Below are positions 5,961-7,279 of a stretch of 41,626 nt of DNA, in pieces. This DNA comes from Haemophilus sp. C1 (GTDB lineage Bacteria; Pseudomonadota; Gammaproteobacteria; Enterobacterales; Pasteurellaceae): assembly GCF_001276515.1 (NCBI RefSeq), contig NZ_LDVZ01000017.1:1-41626 (forward strand), in the 5' to 3' direction. The notes beneath the pieces are model-generated. The model made no database searches, was not told the origin of the DNA, and worked only from the letters and a program-made list of their open reading frames with translations. Position numbers and translations under genes: made by a program. The number at the start of each line of letters is the position of its first letter. Position 1 is the stretch's first letter.

Positions 5961-6200
5961 TTAATGTTTTACTTGATATTGCTTACCATCTTGGGCAGTT
6001 ATTAAGTAATCCTTAATAACTGAATACTCATCTAACTCTTTGTCTTTTAATATATTTTTTATATGTAAGGCGATATTTTGTACAGAGGTGTCAAAAAGTT
6101 CCGCAAGCTGATTTTGGGTTAGCCAAGCCTCATTTTCAACAACTAATAAAGCAACGTGAGATTTGCCGTCATCGGTGTTGTAGATGATTAAGTCGTTCAT
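5961..6200 (-). pseudogene. RhuM family protein, N-terminal fragment
   Basis: Only 79 residues remain. The N-terminal region is that of the Virulence_RhuM family: a short beta-rich lead, then a helix-turn-helix-like stretch WLTQNQLAELFDTSVQNI and the segment up to AQDGKQYQVKH. It corresponds to the first quarter of the longer RhuM gene at 8541-9538 but is clearly a divergent copy. The reading frame ends where the REP-like palindrome begins, and the conserved YYSLPLIIAVGYRV part and everything after it is missing. The ATG overlaps the prrC stop (ATGA), so it is still translationally coupled to prrC. Function as a small DNA-binding protein is conceivable; decay is more likely. Confidence 0.75.
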
Positions 6201-7279
6201 TGGTACTCCACGAAATTGCAGAATTCATCAATCGCACTCATCAATTTCTTTACTTCATTTTTATCAGAATCACTCAAATTTGAAATTTCTTCGCTTGAGT
6301 GTGCTGAATGGCTATTCAGATCAATTAATCTTGGTTTAAAATCATTACCTGTTTTGTTATTAATAGCTTCCAATAATTCTTTCCATCCTTTATAGCCAAG
6401 ATAAGTAGATGTTTTTTCTAATAGATTCCGGAGAAAATTAAAGTGATATTTTTGTAGATCTCCATTAACTATGGCTTTCTGAATTTCTTTTCTCAAAAAA
6501 ATATGATATGCGAATGGGTGATCATTATCTTGTTTAATCAGAGCATATTCTTCATTTTCATATTTCTCTAGATAATATTTTTTATAGTTATCTTTTTTAA
6601 ATTCATTATGTAATACATTATAAAATAATGGGTTGTGTGTTGATATTATTACTCTTACTTTGGATTTTATGATCTTAATTATTTTTGCCAAATCCATAGC
6701 TAGTTCTATTAAATGATTCTCATCTAAAGAGCTAACTGGATCATCTATAAAAATGTATTTAATGGATTTGAATCTGTCGTCAGATTCTTCATAACTTATT
6801 TTTACTTTATCTAAAATAGTGTAAAATATACTCCATATGAAGTTGCTTTCTTCCCCTTTTGATATTTTAATTTTTTCTTCTGCCCTGTTATCTCCACTAG
6901 CATAGTAAAAAATAACTTTAGAAAAGTCTTCGTCAAATTTAGGGGTTAATTTATTATTATTTATATATCTTTGAAAGTTTAAAATTATTTCTTCTTTTTC
7001 ATCTTCATATAATATATTGTTTATCCAGTCTATAAATTTATTTTTATAGATATTCAATGTTGGTGTTGTTATCTTATTATCCCAATAAAAAATATCTTCT
7101 GTATAAGAGTTGTAATATATTATTTTTCTATTCTCATCTATAGATGTAGATGATTGAACTAACTTCTTGAATTCATTTGATAATCTTGTTTTACCAGTTC
7201 CATTGAAGGCATAAATTAAATGAACTTTCCCTTCGTCGTTCATTAAATCTTGAGATAGCTCTGATAATTTTTTACTCAT
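6197..7279 (-). CDS. prrC: PrrC-type anticodon nuclease linked to type I R-M
   Basis: A 360-residue protein with an ABC-type ATPase: Walker A FNGTGKT (25-31), a signature-like ISKGEESNF (139-147), Walker B YIFIDDPVSSLDENH (175-189) and H-loop STHN (H215). The N-terminus LSELSQ...HLIYAFNGTGKTRLS strongly resembles E. coli PrrC. The C-terminal part carries Arg284 and Glu288 (spacing R-x3-E) and His324/His327 about 40 residues later; E. coli PrrC uses Arg320, Glu324 and His356 to cut tRNA-Lys in the anticodon loop. In E. coli the nuclease is kept latent by the type IC complex encoded around it and released when a phage inhibits restriction. Here it lies between hsdS and hsdR, overlapping the hsdS stop by 8 bases with GGAGGT upstream, as expected for co-regulated assembly. 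It is somewhat shorter than E. coli PrrC (396 residues). Confidence 0.88.
   Translation of the reverse strand: MSKKLSELSQDLMNDEGKVHLIYAFNGTGKTRLSNEFKKLVQSSTSIDENRKIIYYNSYTEDIFYWDNKITTPTLNIYKNKFIDWINNILYEDEKEEIILNFQRYINNNKLTPKFDEDFSKVIFYYASGDNRAEEKIKISKGEESNFIWSIFYTILDKVKISYEESDDRFKSIKYIFIDDPVSSLDENHLIELAMDLAKIIKIIKSKVRVIISTHNPLFYNVLHNEFKKDNYKKYYLEKYENEEYALIKQDNDHPFAYHIFLRKEIQKAIVNGDLQKYHFNFLRNLLEKTSTYLGYKGWKELLEAINNKTGNDFKPRLIDLNSHSAHSSEEISNLSDSDKNEVKKLMSAIDEFCNFVEYQ

Follow-up and report, generated by a model that had tools for sequence, protein, structure and literature searches.

A PrrC-family anticodon nuclease in a type IC-like restriction-modification operon of Haemophilus, and likely nuclease-domain exchange among its relatives

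In Escherichia coli, the anticodon nuclease PrrC accompanies the EcoprrI restriction-modification (R-M) system, where the genes stand in the order hsdM-hsdS-prrC-hsdR and the R-M partner is type IC-like. This PrrC (396 aa) joins an ABC-ATPase head to a nuclease with an R-x3-E...H triad, described as R320/E324/H356, and with a recognition residue, D287 (PMC3014915; PMC2610378), for which contact with the wobble base in its modified form has been proposed (PMC3014915). A 15-residue 'PrrC box' is named in PMC3014915 as well. The PrrC nuclease was assigned to the HEPN superfamily in 2013, and the same source associates RhuM with PrrC and R-M genes (PMC3710099). A further PrrC, PrrC170 of Klebsiella quasipneumoniae, likewise occurs with a type I system and is described as antiphage and as targeting tRNA-Lys (PMC11555353). 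RloC shares the ABC head and a similar nuclease triad, and is described as a protein of 658-897 aa with a zinc-hook insert that is rarely linked to R-M genes (PMC2610378). The subject here is prrC, an open reading frame (ORF) in a 41,626-nucleotide stretch of Haemophilus sp. C1 (contig NZ_LDVZ01000017.1), hereafter the window. Its product is very probably an anticodon nuclease of the PrrC family, standing guard over the type IC-like R-M complex encoded around it. The gene joins an already described family: PrrC, its type IC linkage and its RhuM neighbour have all been published before.

The identity of the window protein is established chiefly by its match to the PADLOC PrrC profile (395.9 bits, E 4.2e-119), which takes in residues 3-358 of 360 and profile positions 19-348 of 372. 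A protein database search returned at least 8000 matches, of which 120 were examined; among those listed, the closest to bear the name anticodon nuclease are 79% (Haemophilus parahaemolyticus) and 78% (Aggregatibacter actinomycetemcomitans) identical to it, and the homologues suggest a Pasteurellaceae-like source. Pfam reported AAA_13 alone at E ≤0.001 (E 8e-17), and no NCBIfam profile scored above its cut-off. Within the head, which spans about residues 1-226, the Walker A (FNGTGKT, from residue 25), signature-like (SKGEE, 140), Walker B (FIDDPVSSLDE, 177) and H-loop (STHN, 213) motifs are all present. The ATPase residues K30, T31, S140, E143, D179, D180 and H215 are each kept in 82 of 82 aligned loci, the alignment comprising the window protein, the PrrC ORFs of 80 loci (the best 80 of 107) and two E. 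coli loci. That the protein is instead RloC-like or another kind of ABC-HEPN nuclease, to which the same AAA_13 profile and weaker PADLOC matches to PDC-S06 and LmuB would also point, is extremely improbable: the next-best PADLOC profile reaches just 39.9 bits, the linkage is type IC-like as for PrrC, and a length of 360 aa cannot accommodate the coiled-coil zinc hook described for RloC (PMC2610378).

The nuclease domain carries R284, E288 and H324, each of them invariant (82 of 82 loci). The triad is also complete in 118 of the 120 database proteins examined, the other two being short and ending before it. In L082, a homologue on an E. coli plasmid that stands in here for the EcoprrI prototype, the corresponding residues are R323, E327 and H359, with D290 at the recognition site, a constant +3 relative to the published numbers. 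An earlier note on this DNA had named the ORF a PrrC and had let that name depend, at the sequence level, on whether residues 260-360 would align with the nuclease domain of PrrC. These residues do align, and the name stands; the ORF, its named motifs, R284, H324 and H327 lie at the positions the note had given, with E288 four residues after R284. The note had also offered 'His324/327' as the catalytic histidine, and this survives for H324 but not for H327, which is His in 42 of the 82 loci.

In the tRNA recognition segment, D253 aligns with E. coli D287 (Asp in 80 of 82 loci), and D253, F256, Y258 and H259 are kept. Right after the D287 equivalent comes H254 in the window; this position is Ser in 77 of the 82 loci and His in only one, L001. 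At the same site, the 118 database proteins that span it have Ser (96), His (21) or Thr (one), and all 21 His-bearing proteins (P0001-P0021) form the window's own clade, at least 78% identical. H254, adjoining the D287 equivalent, could tune recognition. Two recognition-peptide classes were distinguished among 94 PrrC proteins, SF4 with E. coli-like spacing (38) and PF2 with the window's short spacing (56), counts that include eight pattern-unclassed rows assigned by eye (L052 and L053 to PF2; L055, L071, L072, L098, L100 and L108 to SF4). It is possible, though unlikely, that the target of the window PrrC is not tRNA-Lys but a different tRNA, or that it favours another wobble modification. 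Its D-H-P-F peptide, compared with D-S-N-K-S-F in L082, has the shorter D-x-P-F spacing as well as the clade-confined His, and substrates may vary because the recognition stretch varies, as suggested in PMC3014915. The four kept residues speak for an unchanged target, as does the class itself: all seven streptococcal loci belong to PF2, by which the short-spacing PrrC is plausibly the S. mutans type reported active.

Comparison across the family makes it likely that PrrC consists of an ABC sensor head matched to the R-M complex and an exchangeable nuclease cartridge. Two old nuclease classes would have been joined repeatedly to unrelated heads by recombination near residue 227, and the hsdS-hsdR interval of the nearest genus would be a general cargo slot in which PrrC alternates with Abi_2. 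The loci were picked by likeness to the window PrrC, again the best 80 of 107, and 94 rows were compared (WIN, L001-L082 and L098-L108). Set aside were L109 (partial), the divergent L095-L097, and L083-L094, which are narrower stretches of the same twelve genomes as L098-L109; the short proteins P0017, P0018, P0021, P0022 and P0023 were left out of the head/nuclease identity comparison. Trees came from quick searches under LG+G4. Class was read from the recognition peptide, and the nuclease tree was built from the columns from residue 262 on. On this tree class changes once, on a single branch (support 98) that parts SF4 from PF2. On the head tree it changes 14 times, against a mean of 29.7 and a lowest value of 23 in 200 shuffles; three of the 14 changes are forced by well-supported branches alone, and with the eight rows assigned by eye as a third label, 'other', the counts become 18 for the head tree and 7 for the nuclease tree. 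A one-clade topology on the head tree was rejected (p-AU 4.6e-61) in a test made after the trees had been inspected. The tree of HsdR, which covers 86 of the 94 rows, has 21 changes, of which strong branches force 17. Its shuffled mean is 27, and shuffles as low as 21 numbered 4 and 9 of 500; 21 being below most shuffles, class is therefore weakly clustered there. These trees suggest that the nuclease classes follow neither the ABC head nor the R-M partner.

Pairwise identities point the same way. For the 78 of 94 loci with near-complete HsdR and HsdM, Spearman coefficients were 0.70 for head-HsdR and 0.67 for head-HsdM, and 0.18, 0.18 and 0.27 for nuclease-HsdR, nuclease-HsdM and head-nuclease, respectively. 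All six pairwise correlations, nuclease-HsdR included, exceeded 500 of 500 permutations, and within the parts the two head halves correlated at 0.60 and the two nuclease halves at 0.70. Where heads are 75-90% identical, nuclease identity averages 0.68 in same-class pairs (n = 481) and 0.40 in different-class pairs (n = 375). Of the different-class pairs, 378 have heads that are 75% identical or more; in these the best break has its median at residue 227, with a middle half of 227-229 and a 5-95% range of 199-231. Having picked the pairs on how alike residues 1-226 are favours this place. E. coli has members of both classes (L081 in PF2, L082 in SF4), as does each of four named phyla.

One pair, L098 and L099 from two genomes of one genus, has PrrC heads that are 99% and nucleases that are 36% identical; their DNA is 96.9% shared over 831 bp ending at about prrC codon 236. 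The same pair is also represented by the narrower stretches L090 and L093. The PrrC alleles of L091, L092 and L093 (wider stretches L101, L102 and L099) are 452, 488 and 556 aa long; insertions of about 72, 77 and 176 residues lie between their recognition peptide and R-x3-E, and the triad is kept. A different C-terminal domain in these alleles was considered and rejected, the triad being present after the insert. In L092/L102 the H-loop reads TTYN, at a position that is His in all 82 aligned loci. The exchange of target-recognition domains by hsdS offers a likeness to that proposed for PrrC nucleases. A published report of PrrC nuclease exchange was not found in the open-licence literature, the only part searched, which proves little.

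Several observations weigh against these readings. prrC is patchy, with a match at E ≤1e-20 in 15 of 120 relatives and in 2 of the 10 nearest-genus genomes. Between the window prrC and two same-genus ones, the head is 53% and the nuclease 35-37% identical, while HsdM and HsdR are 90-96% identical to those of the same two genus-mates (HsdR 94-96%). With PrrC differing throughout beside such similar HsdM and HsdR, the head here does not track the R-M partner, and a divergent head despite like HsdR indicates that whole-gene replacement also happens. Furthermore, the locus pairs are not mutually independent, and gene conversion that made the heads alike would leave just the pattern expected from exchange of nucleases. 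With regard to function, His at 254 where most loci have Ser means that the substrate may differ. The Foldseek top rows for a PrrC model are Rad50, SMC, PtuA/retron and ABC-transporter ATPases, with low TM-scores (0.26-0.35 by query length). They cover mainly residues 1-263, barely reaching the nuclease part, where the model has weak stretches (residues 253-255 and 325-330); no claim for the nuclease domain is therefore drawn from the fold search. By sequence, the window PrrC alone matched no PDB entry at E ≤10, and an alignment profile matched just 5da9 (E 0.12) and 5dac (E 0.17), both weakly, no solved PrrC being found this way.

By analogy with the E. coli prototype, the HsdMSR complex would keep PrrC latent, as described for that system (PMC3014915, PMC12707154). 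A phage factor that blocks restriction (Stp in T4), together with a rise in dTTP, would be the trigger; the PrrC head would then hydrolyse nucleotide, and the nuclease would cut tRNA-Lys on the 5ʹ side of the wobble base, so that translation in the infected cell would cease. Both the tRNA-Lys substrate and the release of PrrC through an anti-restriction factor from a phage are what we infer from the prototype. The family comparison suggests a head fitted to the resident R-M complex and a nuclease domain that can be exchanged as a module. The window PrrC shares with the EcoprrI protein its ABC head, triad, D287 equivalent, gene order and type IC-like partner. It differs in length (360 versus 396 aa), in sequence (head 52% and nuclease 35% identical to L082) and in having a rhuM and a rhuM remnant added to the locus. 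The PrrC proteins of L001 (A. actinomycetemcomitans) and P0019 (H. parahaemolyticus) are closer, being 78-79% identical along almost their entire length, and share both the window's triad and the His after the D287 equivalent; HsdS of L001 is only 63% identical to the window's in its best stretch. To PrrC170, the window system is likened by description (PMC11555353) rather than by sequence.

In the window, the genes of the operon stand in the order hsdM-rhuM-hsdS-prrC-(rhuM remnant)-hsdR, with the hsdM, hsdS and hsdR frames all open (Table 1). The operon is type IC-like, judging from an HsdM that fits TIGR00497 and an HsdR with an EcoR124_C domain; EcoR124 is a type IC enzyme. The earlier note had prrC overlapping hsdS and preceding hsdR, as in EcoprrI. 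The start of prrC and the stop of hsdS do overlap, sharing 8 bases (7272-7279), and an AGGAGG stretch stands shortly before the prrC start. The order and orientation hsdM-hsdS-prrC-hsdR are those of the family loci. prrC does precede hsdR, though not directly: the gap is 292 bp and holds the rhuM remnant, whose ATG overlaps the prrC stop as ATGA.

Table 1. Positions of features in the window
Feature	Position	Strand	Description and matches
hsdR	2821..5904	-	1027 aa; EcoR124_C C-terminal domain; Pfam PF12008 E 8.9e-68 and others; TIGR00348, 693.3 bits
Short palindrome	5937..5954		GGTGGGCTTTAGCCCACC; just after the rhuM remnant; terminator-like, + strand only
Second-rhuM N-terminal remnant	5961..6200	-	79 aa; between prrC and hsdR
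prrC	6197..7279	-	360 aa; ATG start; ABC-ATPase head and C-terminal anticodon-nuclease (HEPN-type) domain
hsdS	7272..8459	-	Specificity subunit, 395 aa; Pfam Methylase_S, two stretches, E 1.6e-45
rhuM	8630..9538	-	Virulence_RhuM family, 302 aa; between hsdM and hsdS; Pfam PF13310 E 3.9e-99; PADLOC PDC-S05
hsdM	9541..11085	-	514 aa; NCBIfam TIGR00497, 658.3 bits (cut-off 242.75)
Usher-like	37488-40022		Below NCBIfam cut-off
Fimbrial-subunit-like	40845-41504, weakly 35701-36897		Below NCBIfam cut-off

The remnant is 38% identical to the window RhuM over 69 aa and 90-94% identical to the start of the RhuM in the same place in L086, L088, L090 and L094, where the matches span 267-289 residues. This second rhuM is also short in L089 and is split between two frames in L001. 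Pfam named no family for the remnant ORF. An antitoxin-like small ORF was considered at this position and rejected, its likeness to RhuM marking it as the start of a second rhuM. Promoter-like sites between 5700 and 11500 showed no excess (20 versus a shuffle mean of 22.3), an Rfam scan of the window gave no family at threshold, and no tRNA gene was found in the window. Gene order was tallied across 80 loci, each by its best RhuM match. The order hsdM-hsdS-prrC-hsdR without rhuM is found in 58; rhuM lies between hsdM and hsdS in eight (including L001), after prrC in nine (among these L057, without a visible hsdR) and after hsdR in one; the remaining four are without rhuM, and in the stretch compared they are missing either hsdM or both hsdM and hsdS. 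Outside this tally, L095, L096 and L097 carry PrrC-like genes that have diverged (35-37% identity), each with a distant HsdM (36-37%) after it, in an arrangement that departs from type IC.

Among the ten nearest-genus genomes, all have hsdR, with an internal stop in three; the nearest genome in the collection, L118, shares 36% of sampled words with the window. The hsdS-hsdR interval is variously occupied. In L113, L114 and L117 it holds an Abi_2 gene, recognized by Pfam in L113 (E 1.1e-55) and L117 (E 7.1e-56) and by very similar sequence in L114; hsdR of L114 and L117 carries a stop. An IS200-like transposase fills the slot in L110 (by Pfam) and L111 (by very similar sequence, with a short rhuM after it), and L116 has rhuM alone. 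In L118, hsdS is followed directly by a broken rhuM, and in L121 a rhuM with breaks accompanies a broken hsdR, the stretch before this rhuM lying outside the comparison.

The same region bears on whether prrC could be a decayed, inactive passenger of the R-M operon. The second rhuM beside it is truncated, so the locus does lose genes, and 8 of the 10 nearest-genus genomes are without a prrC match. Decay is nevertheless quite improbable given the open frame, the complete triad and ATPase motifs, and a dN of 0.131 against a dS of 0.960 relative to L001, which indicates that the frame is under purifying selection. Moreover, the database entry P0001, identical to the window protein, is on 17 contigs, the window's own possibly included. 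The window gene is an ordinary, probably live PrrC.

Elsewhere in the window, selD (34550-35593) has an ATG at 34550 that is followed in frame by a TGA (34595-34597; context GAG-stop-GCK), ahead of the GTG at 34619 with which its listed ORF starts; it looks like a selenocysteine-containing SelD, as in Haemophilus. From 35701 to 41504, at the window end, lies a chaperone-usher fimbrial cluster whose members all fall below the NCBIfam cut-offs.

The window gene alone has little import beyond annotation, and the wider PrrC comparison matters more. If the nuclease has indeed been swapped while the head mostly stays with its R-M partner, this would help to explain the variable tRNA-recognition segments of PrrC, and host and phage may contest which tRNA site gets cut. 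Natural pairs such as L098 and L099, in which almost only the nuclease differs, make the targets of the two classes comparable without engineering.
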